Below the pieces are notes generated by a model. That model searched no databases, was not told the origin of the DNA, and saw only the letters and a program-made list of their open reading frames with translations. The translations under genes and the position numbers were made by a program. This document shows positions 1 through 64,000 of a DNA stretch of 64,000 bases, piece after piece. The DNA is from Lepidurus packardi (taxonomy: Eukaryota > Arthropoda > Branchiopoda > Notostraca > Triopsidae): positions 6,568,790 to 6,632,789 of the forward strand of contig JAKZAN010000002.1 in assembly GCA_023053545.1 (NCBI GenBank), in the 5' to 3' direction. Each line of letters begins with the position of its first letter. Position 1 is the first letter of the stretch.

Positions 1-1857
1 CATTCTTTCGGGTCTTTCCACGTGATGTCTTGGCAAAGAAAACAATCTTAACCAACAGTAAAACATTGACACGGGACTTACGGCTTGGTGTAGCTGTAAT
101 GAGCCAACATGCGTTCATCGTAAATCAAAGCCACGGAATCACTCTGAGTGCCTGGTGGCTTGGCAATCTTGGGAATTCTCGTTTGCACACGCTTTTTCAG
201 CAAAGACGGCAATGTGACATCTTCGGGAGAGCTTTCAATCGAAGAAAGAATTTCGTCCGTTCCCTGGAAACGCAAACACTTCCAGTACGGTCTTTGAGCA
301 TTCAGGGCATCCAAGATCATCCTATGCATACTATCGCCATCCAAAGAATGTTTTCAACAAAAGGAAAACAGAAAAAAATGTGGCAAACTTTTCAGAAGTC
401 TCTCCACCAGACAGTGAACTGGGACAAGGTTGTCCTACTAAACCCCGTAAAATCGAAATAGCTGCATCGGGAAGATAACAATCGTCATTCTCGTCCTAAA
501 ACATTACATTACCTCTGTAACGTCCAATAAGTGGTATTAGGCAAAATTACTTGTACAATGGCGACTACTTTACCATGCGCCAAAGCCATTAAAGCATTCG
601 TTACATGTGTGAACAACGGACCGTTCGTTTTGTTTCCACCCTGGGAACGTGACAGTAAAGATCATCTAATTTATTCACTGTTTCATTTAATTTATTCACC
701 TACCCCGAGGATGAGCACCAAGTCTGGGTTGTACTAAAGACGAGTTATAAAAGAGGCTCCAAGTTTTGAATTGATTAATTTTACTTCGTAAGCCATTGGG
801 AGCAAAAGATTGTGTAAAATTGCCAGATAGTCAGCGTCGCTCAGGCCGTTGCTGCCATATGACACATTGGTATTGTAACCTCGCCCTAATTTCTCGCCAA
901 CGTTTAAGGTTGACGCTCCCATCTCGAATGCGGCATTAATAGAAAAATAAAATATTTTGGAGTCGTCATAAAAGGGTTGTTGTTTATCGACTCCATGCGG
1001 GACGTCCCAAGCCAGGATGAATACTTTGTTAACCTCTTTCCTCGCACGTAACGTTTTTTGCACAGTTAGTACTACGCTGTTCATAAGGGACTCGGAATTC
1101 TGGTCCACATTTCTCCCTGAGAAACTGCCAGATAATTCTTATTTACCTATCCTTTCTTGGTTAAACTAATATACCAGGAAAGAACGATTCCGTTTTGTAC
1201 TTTTCCGTCAAAGACAGCTTCCAGTATTTCTAGTGTAGCGCCTTCAATCGACAATGCCTGGGGACCTGGGCCCTACAGTACGACCGCGAAGTCGGGTTAT
1301 ATTATTCTATTTGCGCAATACCTGTTATCTCAAACAAATAAGTACCTTTAGACAAGAATGCTCCTGTCCTAGGCTCTTCTTCAAACATGAGCTCTCGCTG
1401 ATATCTTTCCCAAGAGGTTTGTTGGTCATCAGCAATGGATCTTCTGCGTTGTTGACAAGCTGGGGTTTTATAAACGATACGTTCCCGGAAGCAAAGCTTA
1501 CTTCGAAGCACCTTCAAATCGTTAGAGTATAGCCAAGGAATCCAAGAAGCCTTAAATTAAACTGTCCCGTAGGATTATACCTAGGCAAGATTGATGATGC
1601 AAGTTCAGAAGGGTCGCGCGATACATAATCAGGCGAATTATTAACCGCTGGCAACACACCGGCGCAGATAAAACCGGTGAAACCACGGACCTTATCCTTC
1701 ACCAACTTCAACTTTGGTAACAAAATTAATACAAGTGAATTATCACAAAACACTTCGAGACGGCTTATAGAGTAAAGTAAATTTATAAAATATCGAAAAG
1801 AAATAAAAGTATCTGAAGACACTATTTAAAGCTTACCGGTTGCAAGTAGTCCTCCAT
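1..1857 (-). CDS. HDAC6 paralogue, left copy (5' part only, runs off the window)
   Basis: This is the N-terminal half of an HDAC6-like protein deacetylase, reading right to left. It starts with a short exon MEDYLQP (ATG at 1857), the same first exon as the complete gene at 3012-7270. Further exons give KLVKDKVRGFTGF (near 1690), a variable stretch (1370-1520), an exon ending in FDGKVQNGIVLS (1170-1260), then FILAWDVPHGVDKQQ and [21 protein letters not shown] (near 800-1010), [10 protein letters not shown] (near 715), and a linker ending [18 protein letters not shown] (78-344). That linker leads into the second deacetylase domain. The last visible exon has HHVERPER and leaves the window. The first deacetylase domain is degenerate: the usual WDVHHGNG reads WDVPHGVD, and the PPGHHA and GFDA motifs are absent. 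The family and tandem relation are secure. I cannot tell whether the second domain is intact. Confidence 0.85.
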
Positions 1858-3011
1858 GTTCTTTGACGTTCGAATACAAAATGATAAGACAAACCAAGTT
1901 GAAACGCTGAAAAACAAACCCTAAATTGCTTACAGATTGTTATCGCTTGTACTAATTGACATAGTCAAAGTTCAACATGTTAACCAAAACCAGGAAATGC
2001 TTCTAGGTCTTCCATTGTTTATCGGTTACTTCTACGGAAAAAATATACGTGACATGAATACGTTTCAGGCTTAATTACCAAAATGATTCTTTTTCGTAGG
2101 CCTACATTAGAATAGCTTTATATGTGTCCCTGCTGTACAATTGATGAATCCCACAAACGTTGCGAATCAAGATATACGACTTCTACAGTTTGTTATATTT
2201 CTTATTTTGTCTTACCCTACTTTAGGGCAGTAGGGGGGGGGGGGGGGGAGGTTATGGGATAAACTTAGAAGAAATACAAGAAGTATACAATCTTGAACTT
2301 TGAGAAAACCAGTAAAAAAAAATATACAATAAAGCACTGAAAACGCAGAACCTTGCTTTGATATTGAATAACGTCATCTGCGTCATCTGCGTCATCTAGG
2401 CTAGACGGGATGCTGGTATCAATTAAATGTTAATCGAGATCAACTATAGGCCCAGAACGGGGAACTGTTGATGGAGTCCAGACGACAAACTGAAGGCCAT
2501 TTTAAACAATTTTAACCTTTTTCTGGAAGGAGTTAATAGACAAAAACATGTCCCGTCTAGCTTAGGATGCTTAAATCCTGCCCTCCCTTCTTTCGTATTT
2601 TCACAACATTATATACCCATGAGTCTGGTTTAGCTTACTCAGCTAATATCCATATCACATCCGTGTAAAAAAATTCCTTTCTCACGGGAGAAAGGACTAA
2701 TTCTTGGTAGCAATAGCAGTTATATCGCTCGTATTTTATAGCAGAGTTTTAGCTAAGCAAGCATAAATTTTATGACTAGACCCTCTATTTCGCGAATTTC
2801 TGAAATACTGTAATAAAGCTAGTATTCAAAGAAGTTGGTAATTAAAAGGTCAAAAGTCTGTATTCAAATAAATTGGTAATTAAAAACGTAGGGCTCCAAG
2901 ATAAATGCATTGTACACTCAATAATAAGCAGCGATAAGCATAAGAAGAAATTCTGTGTTAAAACTTTTGAAAACGCTATACAATTCTGTAAGTTGACTAA
3001 CTTTCCATTAT
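1858..3011. other. Intergenic region between the two HDAC6 copies
   Basis: No gene was recognised here. It holds the 3' flank of the complete HDAC6 gene and the likely promoter of the left copy. It contains a run of 16 G at 2233-2248 and three perfect copies of a 9-bp unit (cgtcatctg-like) at 2372-2398. Otherwise it is AT-rich and featureless to my eye. Confidence 0.6.
2233..2248. repeat. Poly-G tract (16 G)
   Basis: A pure run of 16 G lies on the plus strand in an AT-rich setting, about 375 bp upstream of the start of the left HDAC6 copy. Length may be affected by sequencing. Confidence 0.9.
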
Positions 3012-6000
3012 TTAGGGTGCCAACTTTGGATAGGAACAAGGTTTTTCTCCGTACCGCTCCCAGTGGGCTCTTTTGTTCACAGTTTCGAAGTCCTACAAGA
3101 ATAAACGCACAACAATACAAACTTTACCGAACCGCTAGCAATACTTACAGGATGATCCACGTAGTTATCGCAGCGATGACACCACACTTTCAGATTACCA
3201 AAGTGAAGGGCCAAGGAATGTCCTGTTTCTTCGTAATGCTGATGACTATGCCCATTGTTGCCCGGAGGAAAACAGAAGGGCTAAAAAATAAGTGAGTTTA
3301 AGTTAACTTTGAAATTGGTTGGTAGAGAATAAAGAACTTATTAACATACTTGATAACAGGTCAGGCAACACGCATTAGGCATGAAAAACTTGCAAACGAT
3401 GCAATGTTTGCCAAAACCGATGCCTTTGTTAGAACGCGGATCGAGCGGCATCAAACAATCCAAATGAGGACACCATTTCAGAGTTTGAGGTTCTACCCAT
3501 TGCTTTGATTCCACCGGCAAAGTGGTCGGGAGTGGGATTTGAAATTGCAGGCATTGCCAATACGGCTCATGGGCTTTTTTCACCGTACGAATATCTTCAC
3601 GTGCACCAGGATGAGGTAACGCTGAAAGCCGTAGTTTAGGTAACGGATCACCTAACAATGCTTTAGCGACCATTGTCATTCCATAAGATACTGATTCCAG
3701 GCCATATCCGCCTTCCAGAATCACTGCCATTCGACCGTTGGCTAACGGTTTCAGAAAATGAGTCATGTGTCCATAAGTTTCAGGAGAAATGTTACATCCT
3801 AAATGAGTAAAAAAAATTTAGAAAAAAATATCTTTTGACTTGACAGATAAGAGAGCGTACCTCCTAATGGATCTCCTCGGGCAGCATCGAATCCGCACGC
3901 TACCAGTACCAGTTCGGGTTGAAATTCTGAAGCTATGGGTAGTATAACGTCAAAGAAAGCTGATAAGTACTCCGAATCGCCCATTTCACGCTAAAAGTGA
4001 ATTAAAGAATTTTTTTATAATTAATACATAAGGGTTAGCATTTTCAGATTTACTTGACTCCAAGGGATGTTAACATTGAACCCTATCCCGGCTCCCTCCC
4101 CTACTACATTGGAACCCATGGTTTCAGGTAACACAGGGAAATCATCGAACAAATGTGTGGAGATATAAAGCACGCGTGGGTCTTCAAGAAACATACGTTG
4201 AATGCCATTGCCATGGTGCACATCCCAGTCAACTATGAGAACACGAGACAGATTTCGTTCCTCGATAGCGTGCTTGGCAGCCAAGGCAGTGTTGTTAAAA
4301 AGGCAAAAACCGCAAGGAGCGCTGGCTTCGGCATGATGTCCTGGCGGTCGGATTACGGCAATCCCGCTGTCTGTCTCACCGTCCAAAATAGCGTCTACCA
4401 ACTGCAAAATACTGACCGTTAATCCGTCATATTTACAGGTAAGTTATTATCTGTGTCTACGTAAATAACGCTAAAAGACCTTAATTGATGAACCAGCAGC
4501 TAGCAAAGATAAGGCGTAAGTGTCTGGACAGCAAGAAACAGTATCTATGATGCCCCGGAACAAATGTGGTCCTATTTCTTCATCACTCTGGACTCGTGAA
4601 ATTAAATCCACATAACTCGGTTCATGCAGCATCACAATCTGCTCCTTCGTAGCCATTTGGGCCTGTAACGTAGACAAAACTATTAGCAAAGACGACAGCA
4701 TCGCATTCCTCCTTCTTTTCTCTTATATCCTATATTTGTCTGCATACAAAAAATAGTGACTCTAGTCAATTGGCTGTAGTTAAAAGGACAGTAATTGATT
4801 ATATAAATATAGCTTCAAAAAATGGTTTTACTTCAATTCGATGACAACGATCAACAAGTCCGTATTCAAGCATTCGATTATAGATTGAGAAGATTCTTTC
4901 TGGTCTTTCGACATGGTTTCTAAACAAAGAAGACCCAAAAAAGACTTCTATAAGCAATAAATATCTATAAAAAAATAGATTTCTATAAAAATGTCAAAAA
5001 AAAGAGTCTATTAAACGGCTAATAGAACGAAGCTTAATTTGACTTACGGCGCTGTGTAACTGTAATGTGCCAACATGCGTTCGTCATAAATCAATGCCAC
5101 GCGACCACTCGGTGCATGTAAGGAGGTCGCCTTCTTGGCATCATCCTTTCGTAAACTCCGCTTCGACAAGGAAGACAGTCTTTCTTCATCAAGCAAGCTT
5201 CCAGCAGGGGATTGAGTTTCCTCCGTTTTTTGGAAGCGCAAACATTTCCAGTACGGTCTTTGCGCATTTAGGACATCCAAGATCGCCTTACGAATACTAT
5301 GTTTATCCAAACAAAGGAACAAAATGAAAAAAGAGATACAAAAAAGTATTGGTGTAAGCATACCTTTCGGAAGCAGCTCCACTAGACAGCAAACTGGGGC
5401 AAGGTTGTCCCATCAAAGCCCGTAAAGTCACAACAGCTGCTTCAGGAAGATATTCTTCTCGATTTCCGCTCTAATGAACAACATTTCTTTCCGGTATGTC
5501 TCAAAAGAAGACTTCTGAGGAACTCACCTCTAGAATGACGGCTACTTTGCCAAGAGCTAAGCTCATTAAAATAGTCGTTAGATGAGCAAATAATGCAGCA
5601 TTTTTTTTATCACGACCCTGAGTAAAATGTACAATAAATTTAACAATCTACTTTTTAAAAACAAATAGTGAATAAAATAGAAAGGAGTTACAAATTGCAT
5701 CAACCTACAATGCAAATGAGGACCAAGTCAGGGTTATACTATAAAGAGAAAATCATATTTTTTTTTATAAAAAGATCGTCAAGCATTTTGAGTTGATTGC
5801 TGTACTTCGTAAGCCATGGGGAGCAGAACATGGTATACAACCGACAAATAGTCGGCGTCACTCAGCCCATCGTTACCACAAGACAGATTGATATTGTAAC
5901 CTCGTCCCAATTTCTCGCCAATGTCAAATGCAGAAGCTCCAGACCCCATTTTTTCCCCAACGGAGAAGTATAGTACTCTGGGGTCTTCATAAAAGGCTTG

Positions 6001-7270
6001 CTGGATGCCAAGGCTTTGCTGGACGTCCCACGCCACAACCAAAATCTTCTTGACATGGTTTCGTTGTTGCAAAGCCCTTTTTAGGGTTAGTGCCAGCCTG
6101 TTGGCTGTATTCGTGTCATCCTTAATGCCAACTCCATGAAAAGAACTAACGAGGAAGACTTATTTATGGGTTCCCTTTTTCTTTATTTTGTTAAACGACT
6201 TGGAATTGTATACATACCGAACAAGCGCGATGCCGTTCTGCACTTCACCATCCAAGACAGCTTCCACTAATTCAGAGGGAGCGTCAGAGACTGGGGAAAC
6301 TGTTTGCGGGGATCCCTAAAGATATACCGAACTAGCTTTAATCTTCTTTTCTTTAATTTTTTCTTCAATTAATCGTTATACCTCACGCAAATATTCCATT
6401 TGTCGCAAGGTTCCAGGATTTGTACATCATCAAAATAGGACCTCCCATTGATGGCTTTCGGTAACGTGTTGTTAGTTAGCCTTGGGTCTTCAATCAAAAG
6501 TACTTCTTGTTTTTGGTTTTCACTTTCTTTGACCAGAGGCCGAGGTCGGAGAAGTTTTACTTTCTCGAGCACCAAACCATCTTCTGGACATCTGCAAAGC
6601 ACTCTTCGTTTAATAAACCTCAGACAGCTCTTGACCGAAGAAAATAGGAAGCTTACCTCGCCAAGGACGAGGGAATAAAGTCCGAATTGTTCCACGAAAA
6701 ACGGGTTTGTAAATCATTTTCTTCCGGATAGCTCTCATCCCAGGAAATTCCGGTTAAACCGCGTATTTTGTCCTTAACCCCTTTCAACTGTAACCGAACA
6801 AACAACCACAAAAGGATATAGTTAAGATAAGACAACTCGCGAGTGTTATCTATAGCCTAGTAGAAGTGGTAACGATACTCAAATTCAACTTCAATTTTTT
6901 AAATTACGGATTCTGAATTAGACTACTCAGTACCCTGTCCGAAAGAAAAGCTATACCGACATCGTAACAAGGTGGTAGTAGTACTTCTGCCTTTTCTTGC
7001 AATAACGCCAATGAAATAAATCACCAATGCCACGATTTACCATTGAATAATAAACACTATACCAAACGAATGTTGCTTCTTAACTTTTCGGTAAAGCTTT
7101 TTAGGAGGAAAGTAAAGCGTCACAAAATCACATGCGTTCAAACTGAAACATAGCGAAGTTAAATTCTGTTGCTTACTGGTGCTACAGAAATGAACAATAG
7201 ACAAAACAATATTTCGAGGGAAATTTTGCAAAAATATTATAATATTCACCGGTTGTAAGTAGTCTTCCAT
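3012..7270 (-). CDS. HDAC6: Histone/tubulin deacetylase 6 (complete, tandem right copy)
   Basis: This is a cytoplasmic Zn-dependent deacetylase of class IIb, about 900 residues in about 16 exons from ATG 7270 to stop 3012. Domain order is HDAC domain 1, linker, HDAC domain 2, then ZnF-UBP. Domain 2 (exons about 3500-5130) keeps the catalytic motifs: [33 protein letters not shown] and EGGYGL. The C terminus has the zinc finger WCPHLDC..., [18 protein letters not shown], then [18 protein letters not shown] and [13 protein letters not shown], which in HDAC6 binds free ubiquitin C termini; the gene ends CSYPKLAP. Domain 1 (5400-6790) is degenerate: WDVHHGNG reads [14 protein letters not shown] is gone, and the GFDA block is shortened to ICIGRDKK. 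Fold residues such as [16 protein letters not shown] remain. It is divergent from cystinosin across 650 bp. Confidence 0.92.
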
Positions 7271-7924
7271 GTTGTTCCACGTTCACGTATGAAATGGTAA
7301 GACATTCAAAGTCCGATCTCCGAAGTTAGAAATGAAATGTAAATGATAGCAATGAATGCCCTTGCAAAACCGGTTCCTGTTCCTGGTTTTGGCCTTAAAA
7401 AGAAGTATGGTTAGGCCTACGTCCACCGGATATATCTAGATGCTCTAAGCGTATGTGTCGGGGAGGATATAGTAGAGGAAAGTTAAACCGCAGGCATCGC
7501 AGAAACGAAAGGGAGGCCAAGGTCTTCCACAGCTACAGAAACGCCCTAGGAAGTGTGTTAGTAAGGTTGTTTTTAAACGAACAAATACTCAGATGCCAGC
7601 TTACAGCTTCCTTCCTTAATTTTATGTCGCGCATTTGGTTACATAGCTTGTTCAAAGGTCGGTTCAAGATCAGTTGATTTTTTTTTATCAAAAGGCTTCA
7701 ACAAAATTAGATACGAGTACTTATAACCTTCGATCATCGATGTTTTCCAATATTTAAAACCGTTCAATGGGTTTATGATTGCGTTATCTCAGAGATTATG
7801 TGTTGATAGAACAAAGCCAAATCTGACAGGCAAAGATAATCTCATAATGGAAATAAATAAGCGAGTGCCATCACTCACTACGATTGTATTGTCTTCACTG
7901 GTACACGACTTGTGTCTAGAAAAC
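7271..7924. promoter_or_regulatory. Divergent intergenic region HDAC6 / cystinosin
   Basis: The two genes start back to back 654 bp apart, so this stretch should hold both promoters. I see no convincing TATA box. It carries no open frame with a recognisable product. Confidence 0.45.
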
Positions 7925-10230
7925 ATGTCGTTAAAGAATTTGTTGATATTCGTCTTTCTCGGTAACCAAAATTCCTTAATAAAATCTAGTGTTTTGTTAA
8001 TTTAGTTTTCACTAGCGGTAGTACACGCGCAGATAAAAGCCGAAAATCAGCTTCTTCTGACAGTATCCACTCATGGTACAACAGTGATAATCGACGAAGA
8101 ATACTATTTAAAGTTATCCCTTCCGTAAGTTTGAAAGCTAAATCCTTATCGTCAGTCCTTATATAACATGTTCTAGAGGAATTACTTCAGTAGAATGTAC
8201 TTTTATGCCCGTCTACGATCCCCCAGAATCAGCAAGAATCGTTGATCCGGTAGAAAATGTGACTGTTTTGCCAGGAGTCCTAGACTGGGAAGCTTCAATC
8301 CCCGTCCGAGGCCGCCAAGCGGGTCACGTGACCATCGTATGGAAAGTTGTACCAAGCGAACGGGATGTCTTTAACGAGACTATAAAGTTCGTAAAGCAAG
8401 GATTGCTTGTAAACAAGCTTATGCAATAACCAAGTTCCTTACATCACTTAGAACGGACGAAGCCTTCACGAGTTTCACTGTCATCCATTCGAGGGAAATT
8501 GATACCACATGTGCAGTCGTGGGTTGGATTTACTTTGCCGTCTGGTCTGCGTCGTTTTGGCCTCAAGTCTATGAAAATTGGAGGCGTAAAAGGTACACGA
8601 AAAGAATCCTCATGCATTCGCTCATGATTTAAACTTTAATTACCCTCGTTAGTGTTATTGGTCTCAATTTCGACTTTGTGGGACTCAATATCTTGGGTCA
8701 TAATTTATATGGCATTTTTAACTACAACCTTTACTGGAATTCGTTTATTCAAGTACCACCAACTCATCATTTTATGGGCAAAGCGTTTTTAATTTAATAA
8801 TGTCGCTTATAGGAACAATATATAACGAATCATCCCTACGGTGTCATACCAGTGCTAATCAACGATGTAGTATTTTCCATCCACGCTTCAGTCATGACCA
8901 TAGTTACGGGTGTTCAGTGCTACATTTATGAGGTAAAGAAAATGGGGATTTTCCGGGTCTTTTATAACTTTTCTAAAAACCTGGTTTTCCCCATTATAGC
9001 GAGGCGATCAAAAGATGTCGTGGCCAGGTATTGGCTTTCTAATTACGTCCGCTTTGATCCTCATTTGTTCCATGATTAGCGTTGCCGCTGGTGCCCTTTC
9101 ATGGCTTTCCGTGCTGTACATTTGTTCCTATATTAAGCTAGCGGTTACCATCACCAAATACATTCCTCAGGTTAGTACAGACACATTTTATAACATAAAT
9201 GTTCATATCACCAACAATAAATTCACGGCAATAACAAATTCTCCCCACAAGGAATTCTCCAATCCCCCGCACTTCGCAAACAACTACTTTAACAATGAAA
9301 TATTTCACAGGCCATCATGAACTACAAACGTAAGAGCACTGACGGCTGGTCCATTGGTGCCATTTTAATGGATTTCACTGGAGGTGTGACAAGCATTATG
9401 CAAATGTTCCTTCTCGCCTACAATAACGGTGAAAAGTGGCTTCAAAATATGTCGCTTGACTTAACTTTCCTTTCTCCTATCCGTAGACGATTGGACTTCC
9501 ATGTTTGGGAACCCTACCAAGTTCCTTCTTGGGTTCATTTCGGTTTTGTACGACATCGTATTCATGTTCCAACACTATGTGCTCTACAGGTATATACTGA
9601 GGTCATCCTACCTTACATTAACTAGCCATATCGCGACTTGAATCAAAAGCTCGCCACGTGTTTCTAAATTGGGAGAGTAACATCACGCTTTGCATGAATT
9701 GCACTTTCATTCTTTTTTAAGTTACTGTCGTCGTGATAGCACGTTATAAGCGAGGGGGTGTTCGACACGACTTCCCCCGTAAGCCTAGAGCATAAGTAGG
9801 GTAATTGAAATATTGATGCTTCAAAAAGCTCGCGTTCTTGAGCTCCTTATCCTTGAAGGGGAAAAGTGGAGGAAAAATCCCGTCAAAGAGTAATTGAATC
9901 TTCAATGTAGCAGGCGGGATTTCCCCGTCCCAAAGAAGCCCTTCAAAGCCGTTCGAATTTTTTTTATTTATTTTCTTTACAGCGGGCGACAATTTCTCTC
10001 TTTCTAGATGACATTGCTACCTTGTCACATACATCGATTTTTGTGACCCAGATATTAGTCAAAGGATTTTCTAGCCCAGGTCATAATGTTTCCCTCGCCC
10101 TTGTCTCTTGTCTTCTCCACTGACTTTTGTTATATATACATTTGCTAGGCATCCCAAGACCAAAGACCCCATTCCCGAGGCCCATGAACATGAACTTGGC
10201 ACGAGCCAAATCGCCTCCTTGTCGACTTAA
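7925..10230 (+). CDS. CTNS: Cystinosin, lysosomal cystine/H+ symporter
   Basis: Cystinosin exports cystine from lysosomes with protons. Exon 1 starts at ATG 7925 and gives a signal peptide, [18 protein letters not shown] after splicing to the acceptor just before CGGTAG. The luminal N-terminal region follows ([26 protein letters not shown]). Seven membrane spans then begin at [19 protein letters not shown], the first PQ loop, and continue through [37 protein letters not shown] and [15 protein letters not shown]. The second PQ loop region is [18 protein letters not shown], followed by [21 protein letters not shown] and [17 protein letters not shown]. The gene ends after a 550-bp intron with [11 protein letters not shown]. 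The border between the FNETIKF and RTDEAFTSF exons is ambiguous. The C-terminal GYDQL lysosomal sorting motif of vertebrate cystinosin is absent. Confidence 0.93.
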
Positions 10231-54312: not shown

Positions 54313-54410
54313 CTACCAATGTTTGTAAACAGAAACCAGTTCAAAGTACAACAGCTCTCCGAGCGGCGATGTCCCTAAGCTGTCGCGCAGATGTATGTAG
54401 CAAATTCTTC

Positions 54411-54428
54411 TGACACAATAGTGTCATT
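54411..54428. repeat. TGACAC palindrome between the two cysteine-cluster genes
   Basis: The word tgacacaatagtgtcatt is the third member of the palindromic border set. It sits 27 bp past the stop of the right-hand gene and about 100 bp before the start of the left-hand one, so it lies at the junction of the two units. Confidence 0.7.
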
Positions 54429-54454
54429 TTTGACCAGCGCGATATGTTACACCG

Positions 54455-56138
54455 TTACATCTGTTTGTCACTTTTACCGGAGAACGTGTTGAAACGAAAA
54501 CCTTTTCTCCTTGGTGAGCAATCAAGGCCAGATTCGCCCTCATCGACAAAACCGTTCAGTCCGGGCATGCATCGTACCCATTCTTCAAATGCGTCCTTAA
54601 ATGCGATTGGAGAGATGTTCGTTCCCTATAGGAAAATATGTACAAGAGAAATAGAATAAGTCGTGACTGTTATGCAATTAACAAGTGCAATACTTACGCG
54701 TGCATCTAAGCCTTCTGAGAGACGTTGAAGGGAAGCAAGAAACGCTCTTACTGCGAGCTCAGGACTTTCCATTCTTAAAAAGAAAAACGTGCGTAGAATT
54801 TCCGTCGAGAAAATATAGCACCCTTTAAAGTAAGAGTAGAAAAAGTTAGGCAGCCAGTCTTTAAAGGTCCCGTTTACCTCCGTAAATACTGGGCGAACCA
54901 GCGAAATAGTTAGAAGCAACGAGATTTTCCCAATCAACATTATGAATGAAACTGCACGAATGGCATTTCAAGGCCGGAAGGAACACATCTTGTTGACCTA
55001 ATGGGAAAGGAAAAAGAAATGCAAGTGATAAGACATTACTACTTTTCTGACAGGCTACCTCGAATGGACACGAATATGCAGGGGATATCAATAATGCACT
55101 CGACTTCTCCTGAGCCGCAGTTTTTGCAATTGCTTTCAAGTCTTGCCGGGATTGCACGATCTAACACAGATGAAAGAGTTTAATATACTTCCTGTTCGAT
55201 ACATTAAGAATATACCATCGTTGCCCAGAGAGTATGATCCATCCTGCTGTAAAACTAAAGCCTGACAAGGTTTAAGGGTCGTTTTAATGCCAACAGCCCA
55301 AGTATTACGAACATGTGTAGCTAAGAATTTGTGTTTTAACGCGTCACATGTGACACACAAAGCCCCACAGCCGTCTTCACACCTGCAATGCTTCACTAAT
55401 TAAAATAATAGAAGCACTTAAAAATTACCTAATAATCGCCGGACTTGAGTTGCAATTAACACAATTCTGTTCAGTGAACGGAGATCCTTCTTTTAAAAAA
55501 GCAGCGAATATTTCCGGTCTTCTTGCTTCCCATCCTGCAGATCTCTTTTCTTTCCTTTCAATCCGAGCCCGAGAAGGAGGTGGATTTGGTTGTCCTTCAG
55601 TGAACGTAATTTTATCCAGAAGTTTCCTAGGCCTCATTTGCTCAACTCGATTACCTGTAATAATAAAATATTTAACCAACGAGGACACATAATCTAACTT
55701 AGCTTCCTTACATGCTTGGGAAATTTTTGGAGCTTCGGACTCAAAAGAACTTCCGGAGGTCGACGCACAATCGTTGGGTGTTTTCGTTATGCCAGTGGTC
55801 TTAGTTTTGGAAATACGCGATGGTCGGTTTGAGGACTGCACTGTTCCGGCTCTTGTGTGTACATACAGTTTACCACTTTTTCCGCCAACTTTTCTCTTCT
55901 TTGCTTTTTCAGCATCCCTTTTTCTTTTCTGTACAGCTTCATATCGTTCTTTAATCATTTCACCAAACGCCGCCGCCAACTCCTTGTCCTTCGTTTTCCC
56001 GGCAAGTTTTCTCTTCTCCTTGTTCGCATCCCTTTTTCTTTTCTGTACAGCTTCATACCGTTCTTTAAGCATTTCACCAAAAGCCGCCGCCAACTCCTTT
56101 TCGCTCTTCCTTTTATTCATTTCTAATTCAACTACCAA
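54455..56138 (-). CDS. Cysteine-cluster protein resembling the N-terminal part of KDZ-type transposases
   Basis: Six exons give about 460 residues from ATG 56138 to stop 54455. The N-terminal part contains two tandem copies of a 34-residue basic coiled-coil-like unit (KELAAAFGEM[LI]KERYEAVQ then KRKRDA). Then comes a cysteine-rich body: NCVNCNSSPAIIR, CEDGCGALCVTCDALKH, SNCKNCGSGEVECIIDIPC and ALKCHSCSFIHNVDWENLV. The last exons give GCYIFSTEILRTFFFLR, ESPELAVRAFLASLQRL and FKDAFEEWVRCMPGLNG. This layout (C-x2-C pairs, then a helical AFL.SL segment and an F..AF.EW motif) resembles cysteine-cluster regions of Kyakuja-Dileera-Zisupton proteins, but no DDE catalytic part follows. The intron beside SIYGG could instead be very short. 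Function unknown; the KDZ link is tentative. Confidence 0.5.
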
Positions 56139-56430
56139 TTTTCAAGTACCAAATGTTTGTAAACAAAAACCAGTTGAAAGAACAACAACTCTCCGAGTGG
56201 TGATGTCCCTTATGGCATTCGGTAAGCCCCAAAACTATTTGATATACAACAGAAAACGGACTTGACTGATAGCCTAAAAGACGACCCGTAAAAATCTATC
56301 AAACGCTATCAAGTTGTATCAAACCTTCTTTCAAACGCTATCAAGTTGTATCAAAACTTCTATCAACTGCTATCAACTTGTATCAAAACTTCTATCAACT
56401 GCTATCAACTTGTATCAAACTCCACCTAGT

Positions 56431-56541
56431 GTATCAACTTCGAACAAGTTGTATCAAACTTTCTCTTCTGTGTTTTCAAGTGCTATCAACTCACCGATTT
56501 TGTACAAGTTTGTCTCGCCTGGCCCGGGCCAGGCTCGCTTC
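56431..56541 (+). repeat. Left terminal inverted repeat (inner part)
   Basis: This stretch reads gtatcaacttcgaacaagtt onward and is the inverted copy of 63858-64000. The right arm has an extra block of about 45 bp and lacks a short insertion present here. Further TATCAA-rich subterminal repeats extend outward to about 56300. Confidence 0.85.
56517..56534. repeat. 18-bp GC palindrome in the left repeat
   Basis: GCCTGGCCCGGGCCAGGC is a perfect palindrome, and an identical copy lies at 63865-63882 in the right repeat. It stands out in AT-rich DNA. Confidence 0.95.
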
Positions 56542-56894
56542 AAGGGACGGCCATTTTGTTGTTAGCTGTGACAACAGCTTATATCGTCCAGACTTTAGCC
56601 TTGTTTTTGAATGACGATTGTTTTTCGTATTCTTAATAAGACTAATAGTGTCCTGTTTCTTAATAAGACTAGTAGTAATAGTTACCTGTCCAATAATAGT
56701 GAAGACAAAGAAGATTTTTACTAAGTCTTATAGTGAAAAAAAAACAACACTTCTAAGAAAGTGTTGTTTAAATTAATTGGTAAGTTTTTAGAAGAGGACA
56801 GTTTGATATTACTATTATTTTTATAATACTCTTTCCGGTTTGGGATCCCGCGCTTTTTCAATACTTTTAACTTCATTTGAAGAAAACGATTAAC

Positions 56895-58624
56895 ATGGAC
56901 GAATTCACGGATTTTTTCGAAAGTTTGCGAACTAAGATACCTTACTGGCGTGAATCCTACCCAACGGATGATGCTACGTTGGTTGAGCGCACTGTTTCTG
57001 ATATCGAGTCTTATTATCGCGCAATTAGTGGGTTACTACTGCGAAAGGTTAGTGCGTTTATGATTTAAACAAATTAATCTATTTTCTGGCGACTGCCATT
57101 CAGGAAGCATTTACTCCTCCTGTCGTTGCGACACTTGAAAGTTTACTTGATGGTGTTAGTGCCGCACTGGAAATCTGGAAGTCGTTACCAGTAGCCACCA
57201 GCTCGTGTTGCGCTTTGTATTTTGCTCCGAATAAGCAACGTACACTTCACGATGGCGGTAATGGGAGACCCAGGTACTTGATTTTACAAGAACAAGTTCA
57301 AGAACTCTGCTCTTTCGGTAAGCTAGGATATTTAAAAGTAAATGCAATAGCCCCGTCATTTCGATATAGGTTTTAACTGTAAACAGATTGCGGGGATGCT
57401 AGGAGTCTCGCGTAATACTATGTCTCGTCGCTTTGCCGAATGGGGGTTACAAAGGAAATTTAGGTAATTGTGTTGTTTTAAATGACTTGCTCGTTTTTGT
57501 ACTTTTAGTACGTCCATTACCTAGGTTTTCGAATGTTTCCGACGCTGAATTGATCAACGTAATTCGAGAAATTCATCTTGACCATCGACATTTAGGATGT
57601 ACCGTGCTTTATGGGCTTCTACGTGCAAGAGGTTTGCACATACAACGAGACAGAGTCCATTCAGCCCTTCGCCAATGTGATCCGCTTAATGTAACGTTTC
57701 TAACTTCTTTTTTATTCGTGTTAGTTGTATTTTATTGCCTCTCAGGTTCGAAGGAGATGGGGTGCGCTGGTGACCCGAAAAAAATATTCGGTGAAGGGTG
57801 CCAATTCTCTCTGGCATATAGATGGCCATCATTCTTTGATTCGCTGGGGCATCGTAATCCATGGTGGCATAGATGGCTTTTCTCGGCTCGTTGTGTTCCT
57901 TTCTGCGAGCGGAAACAACCGTGCCGCTACTGTGTTGAAGCGTTTTGAAGAAGCTGCCGAGAGCTACGGTTATCCTTCACGAGTGAGAAGTGACAAAGGG
58001 CTAGAAAATGTCTTAGTTTGTCGACGAATGGTCGAAGTACGCGGTGTTGGTCGGCGAAGTTTTATTACGGGACGCAGCGTTCACAATCAGAGGATTGAAC
58101 GTCTTTGGCGCGATGTGTACCGTTGCTTCGTTATCACGTACTATTCCCTATTTTACCATTTCGAACATTCGCAGATACTCGACCCATCGAACCCGTATCA
58201 CATTTTTGCTCTACGCTACGTCTTCTTGCCAAGAATTAACGCGGGACTTAAAAGATTTCGACAAGGATGGAACTTCCATAAACTTCGCACGGAACGTAAT
58301 TGGAGCCCTAATATGATATGGGTAAATAACATGATTAGCCTTGCCGAAGAGCCTGACGAGGTTGACGACAGTTATGGAGTCGATGATGACGGTCCAGCTG
58401 ACCCAGAATTGGACAATTACAATGAAGCCTCCGAGGATGAAGCAATTAACGAAACTGCGGATTACCCGTGTCCCATGAGTGGCGAGAATTACCGTCTACT
58501 TTGCGAACATATTAATCCTCTGAAAATCTCTACAAATCATGCGCAAGATGTTTTCGAGGAAGTTTTGAATTATTTGGAAACCTTGCGTGAGAATAACGAT
58601 TTCGTCATGTTGCCGCGAGTGTAA
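56895..58624 (+). CDS. Integrase-core DDE transposase
   Basis: Five exons encode about 500 residues. ATG 56895 opens MDEFTDFFESLRTKIPYWRE. A helix-turn-helix follows (CKQIAGMLGVSRNTMSRRFA, exon at about 57370-57465), then RFSNVSDAELINVIREIHLD and LYGLLRARGLHIQRDRVHSA. The catalytic core is in the last exon (from about 57747): LWHIDGHHSLIRWGIVIHGG with the first Asp, YPSRVRSDKGLENVLV with the second, and RSVHNQRIERLWRDVY with the Glu, giving an intact DDE triad. LPRINAGLKRFRQGWN follows, and the tail is acidic (PDEVDDSYGVDDDGPADPEL). Such integrase-core proteins are common in fish and invertebrate genomes. The gene sits 82 bp upstream of the HECT-like gene in the same orientation. Confidence 0.88.
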
Positions 58625-58706
58625 GTTTCCCCGCAACTGTTAGCTTCTTGGCGCTGGACGGGTAAACACGTTTTTGCTCCAAGTTTTAATACCAAAATAT
58701 CTCGTG

Positions 58707-61700
58707 ATGGATTCGTCATCGAAGGTTTTAAAACAAGTATTGTGGGATTTGGGAAAGGAACATTTATTGGAAACCTTTAAATTAAATATGGTAATTACAT
58801 TTTCAATGACTTTGTGGACACCACATGTTATTGACAATCAACCGCATGCTATATTGTTTATATATTTTTAACAGATGCATATAGTAATAACTTTCTGATG
58901 CATAGACGAAGGCGTGTCAAAATAATCTGTTCTCTTGTCTTTTTGGACAGATAACCGACGAAAACGCCAAATTCATTAGCGAGGCTCAACTAAACGCTCT
59001 TGGTTTGACAGAGATTGGTTTGCAGCTTAACTTTAAGTCTTTCTTCCGGAAACATGAAGAAGGTACCTATGGCTTACCTGGACAAAGCCAGTGTACCAAC
59101 GCTGTTTCGCAGTATAATTCTCCTTCCATAGGTTTGTTATTTTCAACTTAATTTGTTTTATACATACCACTATCGTCTTTTAGTATAGGACAGTCTCATG
59201 AAAATGCGTTCCGGCGATTATCGCAAGCTGAATGTGCCACAAATAATTTGTCTCAAGTCGAGAAGGAGTGTCGTGATGCATTCAAACCATACAGCAAGCC
59301 TACAAATTTCAAAAACAAACGTCACAAAATTGATGAATCTTATTTTGACTCACCATCATCGGTAGCTAAGCTAGAGTCAAGCCGTGGTAAACGGAGCATG
59401 CCGCGTCATTTGGAAGATGACCGTATTGTTGGGTTTTTGAAATGGAATTCGCAAACAACAGCGGCCAGAAACGTCATTGTTGAAACGTCCATGCAACTGG
59501 GTGCCCACGATTCAGCAACCGTAGTGATGGAACGTATAATTTCCTTCTTGAGCCGTCGGCCAAAGGTTTATAAATATATGTATGTATATTGTATATTTAT
59601 TTATTCTTTTTCCCCTAGTTTGCCTTCGTGTCACATCATGATATCCAACTAGTCCGTGTAAAAGGGCGAGAGGTTCACGAGGTAGATGTCGAAAAGATAG
59701 ATGGGGCAACTATTTGTAGGTTTTATCCAAAAGAAAAGTCTGCCGTTTATTTTCGAGCTCGGGTAACCCGTTTCATAACAACAATAAAAATCGTAAACCT
59801 ACTATCGTTTTACAGGAATGGGAATTGGTTAAAGGAGAGAATCCAAAGCGAGCTCCCCAATCAGATTCCGACTCCGATTTTGAAATTACTGCCAGACCCT
59901 TGACGGTACACAGTCCTCGCTTCTTCAAACCTTTTACTTAATTCTGCCTTTTTTCATACCAAAACTTACCAGAAAAAGACAGTTGATCTTTCTTCTTCGG
60001 ACACGGATTCCAATGCACGTACCCAGGATGTACCCCAGTATTCTGCGCTTTCTCCAAGTAAACCATCAGTCAAAGAGTCCGAAATCGCTGATGATGGTAA
60101 AAAAAGTGAAACCCTCCCCGATTTTGTTAATTTTATGGACTCCATTGGCGGGTACTGCACTAATATTTTTTCTAAACAAAAATACTTACACAGTTACAAG
60201 TAGGATTGTTTCAAACGGAACTGGGTCGCGTGAGCTTAACCTTCCCGTCTTTGTCCCTGTAATGGATACAACGTCCGTTGGCGACAAGTACGTGAAGTAT
60301 TTCCCACCTTCTTTAAGAGGCAACTAATTTTGTTCTTTCCAGAGCTAGTAATCGGTCCCTCATAATAGATGTGTTAAATACGCTCAAGTCAAGTATGCTG
60401 CCTGGCGTTGTCCAAATTTATTCAACAAGAAGCAATGCGTTTTCGAAGTTCTGCGAAAAGTCACAATTAGATAGCAAATTGGTGATGAAACACCTCAGCG
60501 TGACCCTGGCAGGGGAATCTGGAATTGACGCTGGAGCGTTGACTAGGGAGTTCTGTCGTCTTGCGCTTATTCAAGCTTTCCAGGAGCTGTGTGAGCCCGC
60601 CCCGTTTGGATATATTTTTTCATCCAGTGCACTGGCATTGGAAGAGGAGAAGTTCGTTCATTTTGCCAAACTTATCGTTGTCGCACTTTTGAATGGCCAT
60701 CCAGGTCCCAAAAGCTTCGCTCCGGCAGTCGCTAATTGGCTTTTGCAATGCCGTAAAGCTGACGCAGAACCGTCCATTTGCGATATTCCCGGAGAAGAAC
60801 TGAGAAGCACTTTGACGAATGTAATAATAAAAAAACATGTTGCGGTTATAAAATCAATATTTGCAGGTACGTGACGCTGGCTCGAAAGAGGAATTTTTAG
60901 CATTGCTTTCCCACACTGATTTGCTATCAAAACTTGGCTGCAGACGTTTGCCATCGTTTAACGAAAAGGATTCCTTTATTAAAGCGGCTTGCAAATTCTT
61001 TGTTATTCACAGCGTGAAAGCGCCGATGGACCAGTTTTTACAAGGTAAGCTGTTAATTACAGTGCTAAGTAAAGTGGACCAATAAACGATCCGTAACTTT
61101 TCATAGGTTTGGGAGAATTAAATTTCTTGGATTCGGCCAGACAATTGCCAGATCATTTCTGGCCGTTATTTGTTGCTAAATCAGTTGACGATATAGTTGC
61201 CAAGGAACTAGTAGAATTGTTCCAAATTGAGTTTGCGGATATCGGTAATACGAAACGCCCAAAAGAAGAGGCTGTTATAGAACACCTTTTTAACACGTGG
61301 CAAGAGATTGAAGGTGAATATAGAGCTATAGTTACACTTTTATAAAAAATTTTGACCTATTAATGTTTTCCGACTTTAGAGTGTCCGCTTCAATGTCAGA
61401 TCTATTTGCCCGGCTTGACCGCTGCCGAAGATACCCAAACAAGTGAAACAGTAGCCTTAAGTCTGGGTTGCTTTCTCACATTTGCAACTGGTTCACAAGG
61501 GTTAAGCGCTGTGGGGTATGGGAGTTTTACCCCTACCATCCAATTTTACCACCCCGCGCCTGAAGAGGACAATGCTAAGTTTTATATCACTGCCCATGTA
61601 TGTGCAAATACCGTCATCATTCCTGTTACCAAAAACTATCAGAGTTATGATGAATTTAAAACAATGTTCATCACTTCAATAGCGTCCTCACCAGAATTTG

Positions 61701-61711
61701 GCAGGATTTAA
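58707..61711 (+). CDS. Transposon-borne protein with SAM-like N terminus and HECT-like E3 ligase C terminus
   Basis: About ten exons encode roughly 720 residues. ATG 58707 begins MDSSSKVLKQVLWDLGKEHL. With exon 2 (FISEAQLNALGLTEIGLQL, NFKSFF) it forms a SAM-like helical domain. A low-complexity middle part follows (SDSDSDFEIT, DLSSSDTDSNAR). The C-terminal 350 residues match a HECT domain in order: VTLAGESGIDAGALTREF, FGYIFSSSALALEEEKF, LVVALLNGHPGPKSFAPA, then LGCFLTFATGSQGL and FYITAHVCANTVIIPVTKNY. The Cys in HVCANTVIIPV lies where the ubiquitin-accepting cysteine sits, and the end SSPEFGRI matches the usual HECT C terminus. It resembles G2/M-phase-specific E3 ligase (G2E3)-like proteins often found beside such integrases. 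The join near 60150-60195 is uncertain. Confidence 0.82.
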
Positions 61712-63857
61712 GAATATTCAATTTGATCATGCTATAGGCTATGCTATAGGTTAAGTTATTAAATTAACCTAACCCAACTTTAACCCATCCAGGTAAAAAA
61801 ATAGCACACCGGTGTTTGCTGATTTCAATCTGAAGAGCAGCAGATAATAGTATTATTCAAGTGCCTTAAATTGTTTTTATACCAAATTGGTCCATTATGA
61901 TTATTGTTATCTGATTAGCATTTACTGTACTCAAGTGCCATTTATTCCAAATTGATGCGTTTTTATCGTTATCAGCAGTCCATTTGTGATCTCGTCTGTT
62001 TTGTGGCGACCCTCGTCTGATTTGAATATTACTGCATACTCAAGTGCCTTCAATAATTATACCAAATTAATTACAATTTTTTAATCGTTGCTGGCTTATT
62101 ACTACCGCGCTCTCATAAGTGCCTTCAATAATTATACTAAATTTGATCCTTCTATGCTGTTTGACTTCAATCTGTTATGATGGTGTCTGATTTCAATCTG
62201 AAGAGCAGATAATAGTATTATTCAAGTGCCTTAAATTGCTGTTATACCAAATTGATAAATTGGACGGTATTTGGTCCATTTTATGGTCCTTGATTATTAA
62301 GAAAAGAAACGGACGCATCTAACTTATCGATCGATCTTTAATTTATGTTTTATGTTTCATGCAGCATAGGTACCGGAACACTATAAAACAAGAATTAACT
62401 TTAATGAATATATGCTAATTATCTAAATATATAAAATAAATGTTCAAAATAAATACAGATAAAAAAGATGAGCTATTAACAAATCCTGTGACCGTGCCGT
62501 TTATGGATTCATTTTAGCGTATCCGCGTCTAAGGTAAATATTTTGTGCTTGTGTTAATTATTAGCTATATATGATCCTGCTGTTCTAATAAATCAATATC
62601 ATCAAGTAATTACACTACCAAATCAGGCTATAGAAATTAATCAAGCAAACGCATCACTTCGAAGAAAAGTACTACAGAATTCCAATAATAAGTTTCGAAC
62701 AGATTCGATTAATAACGTACACTCCGTGTTATTTTTCACTGTATTGGTTTTTGCATGGGATTCAATTACAAAGATGTAATAATTTGACCACACTTTTGAA
62801 TAATAAAAGGTTACGAGGGAGGGCAATAAAATTCTGCAGCAACAAAGATGAAAAAGGTGAATGAAAAATATCGAAACGAAATTGCAATGAAACAGGAATT
62901 ATTACTTTTAAAAAAACCGAATAATCTCAAGTACAGTATTTAAATACTCCATGTGAGGTTATATACCTTTATTAGTCGGATAGTCGTTGGAAGTAATTTA
63001 AATTATTCCGCGTGTTTGTGTGTTATATATTTATCTTTTCGTAGCAGTAAATTAACTGTGCGCCTATGTTCCAAATTAAATATAATTATAACGCTCAATT
63101 AGAAAGAGATTTATTACTATAATACCCTTACCACTTTTTAACCATTATTATACAGACCCTTTTGAAACAATAAATCAAACAAATGAAGTACTACGGAATG
63201 CAATTTATACATGCTATGTTTCAATGTATTTATTTTTGCACGATATAACAATCTGAAAAATACGTTTGAATAAAAGCGCTAAATATGGTACACGTTATTA
63301 TTTTGCGAGGAAAGGAACACGTATAATCTGCAACCATAATAATGCTCATATTATATCACTAACAGGTATAACCAACTTTAAAAAACATTGCACTATAATG
63401 AAAAAACCTGTATTCAAATAAATAAGAGATTGTAGACCAGAAATAAGGATATAAGTATAATATCACAATAAACTGATGAAACTATATAAATTAACAGCAG
63501 ACTATACCAATAATGAATAAACCTACTCCCATTAGAACTTATTAATTAACTCCTCAAACAAGTATAACGCTTATGAGTGCAATCTAAATACTTTATATGT
63601 ATTCGCCACAACAATATTATTATTACAGGCTTATTATTGTTACTATAGTGTGTAAAAAAAAACATTTCGCATAATATTATATCATGACATAAACAATCGG
63701 CATTCAAACAAATCATAACAAGAGGGGTTTGTTAAATGAACGTTAGAATATAGCAGAGTTTTGTTGAGGCTTTGAGCCTGTTTACTGTGGGCAATACGCA
63801 ATAATAATAATAATAATAAATCATAAATAAATAACAATAACAAATAGGCGTGGTTTG
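61712..63857 (+). other. AT-rich non-coding 3' part of the transposon
   Basis: About 2.1 kb lies between the HECT-like stop and the right inverted repeat. It contains dispersed repeats (see 61836-62260), an ATT/AAT microsatellite at about 63801-63820, and no recognisable coding sequence. It may hold the transcription end and cis-acting DNA needed for transposition. Confidence 0.6.
61836..62260 (+). repeat. Subterminal direct repeats
   Basis: A unit of the form caagtgcctt(a/c)aa followed by tatac(c/t)aaatt occurs at about 61859, 62043, 62116 and 62224, with a shorter variant at about 61934. Two of them are part of a longer near-identical block of about 65 bp starting tttcaatctgaagagcag (61826 and 62189). 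Confidence 0.8.
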
Positions 63858-64000
63858 GAAGCGAGCCTGGCCCGGGCCAGGCGATAAAATCAGTGAGTTG
63901 ATAGCACTTGAAAACACAGTCGTTTCGCATTTCGCGTTTGGTTTGTATGTCTGTACGCGTTTTCAGAGAAAGTTTGATACAACTTGTTCGAAGTTGATAC
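63858..64000 (-). repeat. Right terminal inverted repeat (truncated by the window edge)
   Basis: This is the inverted counterpart of 56431-56541. It includes the second 18-bp GC palindrome (63865-63882) and ends in tttgatacaacttgttcgaa and beyond at the window border. The outermost repeats seen on the left are expected just past position 64000. Confidence 0.85.

Follow-up and report, generated by a model that had tools for sequence, protein, structure and literature searches.

IS3EU is a superfamily of DNA transposons that generate 6-bp target site duplications (TSDs) and have TA..TA ends, which take the form TAYGG..CCRTA in fungal members (available parts of PMC10045372 and PMC12730594). The accessory genes named in the available part of the work on rust-fungus IS3EU elements are of the TET/JBP and alpha-kinase types (PMC12730594). 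An element that fits this superfamily by its ends and by the length of its TSDs lies in the notostracan Lepidurus packardi (assembly GCA_023053545.1), on contig JAKZAN010000002.1, within a stretch of 64,000 nucleotides (positions 6,568,790 to 6,632,789 of the forward strand) that is referred to here as the window. Unlike the published fungal elements, it has as its accessory gene one that encodes a HECT E3-ligase-like protein. The element is probably a young, autonomous cut-and-paste transposon with a selected accessory HECT E3 ligase, the activity, substrate and benefit of which we infer. No publication combining 'IS3EU' and 'HECT' was found in the literature searched, outside which lie most subscription papers and the Repbase reports; nor was a transposon-borne HECT gene found there by title or abstract opening, and the combination may be on record elsewhere.

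RAG1-RAG2 and ProtoRAG combine a DDE transposase gene with a separate partner gene inside one pair of terminal inverted repeats (TIRs), while Polinton/Maverick elements carry DNA polymerase and capsid-type genes. The element described here resembles RAG1-RAG2 and ProtoRAG in keeping its transposase and a separate partner gene within one TIR pair; it differs from them in that its transposase and partner are unrelated to theirs, and its HECT protein is known as a sequence, not as part of a transpososome. Ginger1 transposons carry OTU or Ulp1 domains (PMC2836005, as far as available) and make 4-bp duplications (PMC10045372, likewise). They, too, tie an integrase-like DDE transposase to ubiquitin/SUMO-pathway chemistry; in Ginger1 a protease domain sits on the transposase, whereas here a separate gene appears to supply the opposite chemistry, that of a ligase. 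Membership of Ginger1 was rejected, given duplications of 6 bp rather than 4 bp and no OTU or Ulp1 domain found with Pfam. Polinton/Maverick elements make 6-bp duplications (PMC10045372, same part), and the TSD length therefore fits, but this candidate was also set aside: just two genes were found, neither matching a polymerase or capsid family, and the right part of the element has no long frame.

The structure of the element can be read directly from the DNA. An earlier note on the window had placed two plus-strand genes between long inverted repeats, and this arrangement is borne out by TIRs that are perfect over 256 bp, by termini that read TATGG..CCATA and by the TSD GTCCCT. The note put the start at 56285, which has to be moved to 56211, and rightly had the element continue past 64000: reading the same contig (C2, of which the window is C2:6568790-6632789) past the window edge locates the right end at 64220, with GTCCCT on both sides. 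The genes are intact, as claimed, only when spliced, with four introns in the transposase gene and ten in the HECT gene, and not as plain open reading frames (ORFs). Both models were spliced by hand, and plain ORF lists give fragments only because the short introns (46-160 bp) break both genes.

56211..64220, plus strand: IS3EU-type DNA transposon of 8,010 bp, defined by TIRs, TSD and seven near-identical further copies; the window holds 56211..64000 and the final 220 bp lie beyond it
56205..56210, no strand: left TSD GTCCCT; the right copy, at 64221-64226, is outside the window
56211..56466, plus strand: perfect part (256 bp) of the left TIR, starting TATGGCATTCGG; imperfect homology runs onward to about 56563
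63965-64220, minus strand: perfect part (256 bp) of the right TIR, which is imperfect from 63836; its end is outside the window
56895-57047, 57104-57317, 57370-57463, 57525-57690 and 57746-58624, plus strand: transposase gene, 5 exons, 501 amino acids (aa), hand model
58707..61711, plus strand: HECT E3-ligase-like gene, 11 exons, 777 aa, hand model; Pfam HECT (PF00632), E 4.4e-7
58707-58790, 58951-59131, 59189-59565, 59619-59762, 59816-59905 and 59973-60151, plus strand: exons 1-6 of the HECT gene, hand model
60204-60287, 60343-60820, 60867-61044, 61107-61313 and 61380-61711, plus strand: exons 7-11 of the HECT gene, hand model

An uninterrupted, diverged duplicate of the target at 54354-54376, running ..GATGTCCCTAAGC without the insert, represents a paralogous empty site. 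It is supplied by a local duplication of the target region (54318-56210), the copies of which lie ~1.83 kb apart and share 59 bp at 90%.

The 108.6-Mb assembly was searched for further copies (C1, C2, C3 and so on denote its contigs); since the search scores the best candidates only, all copy counts are lower bounds. The main transposase exon occurs at 100% identity in eight places; these are spread over six contigs, with C1 and C3 holding two apiece, and at every place the left and right repeats are 8.00-8.03 kb apart. Far from never co-occurring within one TIR pair, the two genes lie between both TIRs in all eight copies found, with HECT exon scores that are equal exon by exon, and they have thus moved as one mobile unit, as the earlier note had suggested. 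Perfect 6-bp TSDs, read by eye in the flanks, border seven of the eight and are all different (GTCCAT, GTTCCA, GTCCCT, ATTTTT, CTGCAA, CCCCTC and GTGAAG); at C3:5.13M the initial 7 bp of the left end are missing and the copy shows no TSD. A transposase gene standing by chance beside an unrelated host HECT gene, with inverted repeats of other origin, would have nothing in its favour except that HECT genes are common in animals, and it is refuted by eight copies of the same structure on six contigs, seven of them with TSDs; we regard it as practically impossible.

Copy-to-copy comparison covered element positions 1-3911 and 6255-8010 (5.67 of 8.01 kb). In this sampled DNA each copy shows 0-3 changes relative to the window copy, a 20-bp insertion being counted as one: C16, C1:10.12M and, its lost end apart, C3:5.13M are identical to it, C5 and C1:4.54M have one gap each, C3:0.81M has the single 20-bp insertion, and C46 has two mismatches and one gap. 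Because its copies are nearly identical, the window family is very young. A query with the left end also finds further places at 72-95% identity (53 rows in all, with 40 of 121 candidates scored). Among the transposase matches, 31 of 78 rows are fragments of the first-exon region (within residues 1-79) away from full loci, for example at C1:6955665 and C2:3851032; one of these belongs to a relic at C1:6.83M and at least one (C2:3.85M) lies close to an end resembling those of the family, as though the 5' part had survived in non-autonomous derivatives.

The transposase matches the Pfam family rva_4 (PF24764) at E 5.7e-81, and Pfam rve at E 1.2e-5, which is under that model's own cut-off; the residues of its DDE core, picked by eye, are D235, D292 and E327. 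An integrase-like DDE transposase of this kind is a further likeness to IS3EU, and visual inspection of the N-terminal region of the hand model revealed no HHCC zinc motif. A search of PDB with the transposase gave zero matches at E up to 1, and a search of IMG/VR viral contigs with its 299-aa exon gave 40 pattern-matching stretches and zero confirmed relatives. The HECT gene follows on the same strand after a gap of 82 bp. The transposase stop codon (58622-58624) sits in a consensus 5' splice site, GTAAGT (58621-58626), 82 bp ahead of the HECT start, and alternative splicing or a shared transcript is possible. Fusion of the two proteins was examined by hand and rejected, as acceptors tried up to HECT exon 2 run into a stop; fusion by skipping to HECT exon 7 or 8, the only frame-keeping choices, is unlikely.

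The HECT protein scores 30.3 bits against Pfam HECT, over the curated cut-off of 23.9, and its putative catalytic cysteine, C742 (codon TGT), lies in the sequence AHVCANTVIIP, in agreement with the conserved cysteine context reported from the window. A phmmer search of PDB with the whole protein yields weak matches only, the best being AREL1 (E 0.15), with C742 aligned to the cysteine of the AREL1 C-lobe. The SAM-like front end that had also been proposed is suggestive only: residues 1-66 match four PDB chains at E up to 10, two of which are entries of STE11, a SAM domain protein, with weak scores (E 0.024 and 0.033), and no Pfam SAM match was found in the protein, these residues included. The N-terminal pieces scanned from the HECT proteins of this family and of the second family described below have no Pfam match. 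A HECT-like protein devoid of ligase activity, acting as a binding partner or scaffold, e.g. for ubiquitin or an E2, would suit the weak overall score, and the G2E3 of vertebrates is reported to have a catalytically inactive HECT domain; both families, and the relic as well, retain the cysteine within its C-lobe context, and we consider such a role unlikely.

The pairing of transposase and HECT gene recurs in a second, very different family in the same genome. The element at C6:5750287-5760452 is 10,166 bp long, has 483-bp identical repeats starting TATGG, ends in TATGG..CCATA and is flanked by the TSD GGGGTC on both sides; a DNA comparison of the two families revealed no significant similarity. 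Both families therefore end in TATGG..CCATA, like the fungal TAYGG..CCRTA termini, and the IS3EU-like TSD of 6 bp is found in seven of eight copies of the window family and in the one element of the second. The C6 transposase (rva_4, E 1.2e-53) is 39% identical to that of the window over residues 241-407, and a HECT gene lies downstream of it in the same order and strand as in the window element. The hand-spliced C6 HECT domain matches Pfam at E 2.9e-10 (40.7 bits) and E6AP in PDB at E 3.9e-5, and the cysteine of its motif, ARTCGPTLILP, is aligned to E6AP by phmmer. One intron (after LTN / LTK, phase 0), one of four in the domain, is at the same alignment place in both HECT genes, as judged by eye.

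A Pfam HECT search of the whole genome gave 62 exon matches in 108.6 Mb, ciliate-like contigs included; it did not list the window HECT gene or its family, presumably because single exons score weakly. At ~0.006 HECT matches per random 10 kb, a HECT gene inside the C6 element by chance is unlikely. Since this genome has a HECT gene in a second, very different element of this kind, the two genes appear to be working partners rather than accidental neighbours. The rva_4 model matches 12 loci (14 rows), and HECT sequence lies downstream in ten of them, namely the eight copies, C6 and a broken locus at C2:2.63M; over 78 residues the HECT piece of this last locus shares 63% identity with its C6 counterpart (E 2.7e-22). 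Queries with the ends of the C6 element hit many further places (97 rows). Between its transposase and HECT gene, C6 has a 312-aa open frame (L070:4166-5101) with no Pfam match, 29% identical (E 1.6e-10) to a stretch at C1:2.65M that is hAT-like by eye; the frame may be a nested insertion or a third gene.

The sequence of the HECT gene is constrained. The relic at C1:6.83M retains a terminus of the family (26 bp), fragments of exons 1-2 of the transposase gene and, from the HECT gene, part of exon 9 together with exons 10 and 11, with 79-82% identity to the window family at the DNA level; a further HECT fragment is found at C3:0.93M. Over 213 HECT codons compared between window and relic (5 of 218 were dropped for gaps) there are 50 synonymous and 50 non-synonymous differences, giving a dN/dS of 0.21 (bootstrap 95% 0.13-0.33; Fisher p 2.6e-12), and the cysteine codon is unchanged.

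The presence of the HECT gene in every copy found, its recurrence in the second family and its constraint argue for a function that would be useful to the element. Were it instead a passenger, taken from the host and of no use to the element, it would be one instance of a frequent phenomenon, since DNA transposons often capture host genes, and the two of 12 rva_4 loci without a detectable HECT gene would fit. This is improbable, given two families with transposases only 39% identical that each have a HECT gene in the same place, the constraint, and HECT exons that match equally well in each of the eight copies found. Recent capture from a chromosomal HECT gene is unlikely, because the window protein scores 30 bits against Pfam HECT and chromosomal HECT matches elsewhere reach >160 bits.

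Several points weigh against a selected, active ligase shared by these elements. The HECT protein and the element are known here from sequence alone. The similarity to HECT domains is weak and strongest in the C-lobe, and for that reason ligase activity may have been lost or altered. The two HECT proteins are barely linked by BLASTP (E 0.016) and are 25% identical in global alignment, and a tblastn search of the C6 locus with the window protein gave no significant match. What relates the two genes is, in consequence, their shared Pfam match and motifs, and a single ancient HECT acquisition is not proved. Nor is the HECT gene universal, as no HECT gene was found within ~7.5 kb downstream of the transposase at two of the 12 loci, C16:1.86M and C1:2.65M (best weak hit E 0.34), both of which appear to have been broken up by Gypsy-, DIRS- or hAT-like ORFs (identified by eye). 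The copy counts are minimum figures, and in the seven copies outside the window the middle 2.3 kb was covered as protein matches only. Finally, the dN/dS may overstate the constraint, because introns differ less than synonymous sites; in the two introns of the compared stretch 21 of 112 aligned sites differ, plus 16 gapped sites.

Both HECT-less loci share an ORF (NCHAR...) behind the transposase, seen in the C16:1.858M region (L071/L035) and in L077, which is possibly another accessory gene. A BESS-like reading of it was dropped, as it has no Pfam support; the best match for the L077 copy is Anamorsin_N (E 0.049).

If the HECT gene serves the element, the two proteins may divide the work as follows. 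The DDE transposase would recognise the repeat-containing ends, excise the element and insert it with a 6-bp stagger, as its family and the target duplications suggest. Ubiquitin would be handed on by the HECT domain, by way of C742, to a substrate that the N-terminal half of the protein selects. In the role that we favour, the substrate would be a host protein that serves in chromatin, silencing or DNA repair; its modification at the donor or target site would allow transposition to succeed or to escape repression.

Control of the transposase is the nearest rival to a host target and almost as likely. The HECT protein would then act on its own transposase or on the strand-transfer complex, limiting the amount of the former or removing it after insertion, by analogy with ClpX, which acts on MuA. 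The 82-bp same-strand spacing of the genes would lend itself to linked expression, two families keep the pairing, as expected with the transposase as partner, and the N-terminal pieces of the two HECT proteins, being without Pfam match, may differ so that each tracks its own transposase. The same facts fit a host target, and that self-regulation is the main role is a tentative proposition, though a serious one.

The HECT-type C-terminal domain also invites comparison with G2E3, a protein that carries PHD-type fingers. The likeness lies in the domain type, the match here being to the general HECT model; unlike in G2E3, no PHD-type finger was found in the 777-aa HECT protein (Pfam, E up to 1). 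A G2E3 match is on record from a sculpin, among its unclassified repeats (PMC5638112, available part), and according to Marin 2010 G2E3 dates from after chordates and echinoderms had split (PMC2837046, available part). Animal IS3EU elements could have had a separate HECT E3 ligase as their second gene since ancient times, conserved and acting with the transposase, the 'G2E3-like' swarms of some animal genomes could largely be such elements, and vertebrate G2E3 may be a domesticated copy; at present we rate this generalisation as speculative and rather doubtful. If the pairing were general, it could explain G2E3-like gene expansions and provide a testable origin for G2E3. Enzymes that remove ubiquitin and SUMO are known in transposons, with Ginger1, Mutator and Helitron as examples in the available part of the source (PMC2836005), and a transposon-borne E3 ligase would give the parasite the opposite activity. 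Young, near-identical copies with both genes intact offer a concrete system for asking why a transposon needs ubiquitin, be it for host silencing, excision-gap repair or transposase turnover.

Two further features of the element and its neighbourhood complete the annotation.

56295..56419, plus strand: 32-bp tandem units, 3.9 copies, inside the left TIR
61712..63835, plus strand: right part of the element, in which no open frame is long (at most 85 aa in any of the frames over 61712-63870)

Tandem arrays are also present in the TIR of the second family, and the 32-bp array possibly provides transposase-binding sites. Irregular repeats with TCAAGTGCCTT..ATACCAAATT occupy 61819-62261 in the noncoding right part. 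Elsewhere in the window are genes with matches to cadherins and to a 7tm_7 chemosensory receptor. The assembly has its strongest HECT matches (L001-L008) on the small contigs C123, C188, C133, C174, C150, C198 and C243, in frames interrupted mostly by TAG/TAA; under genetic code table 6 the longest frame is longer in all eight loci (e.g. 250 to 797 aa), and because of both features these contigs look like a co-assembled ciliate.

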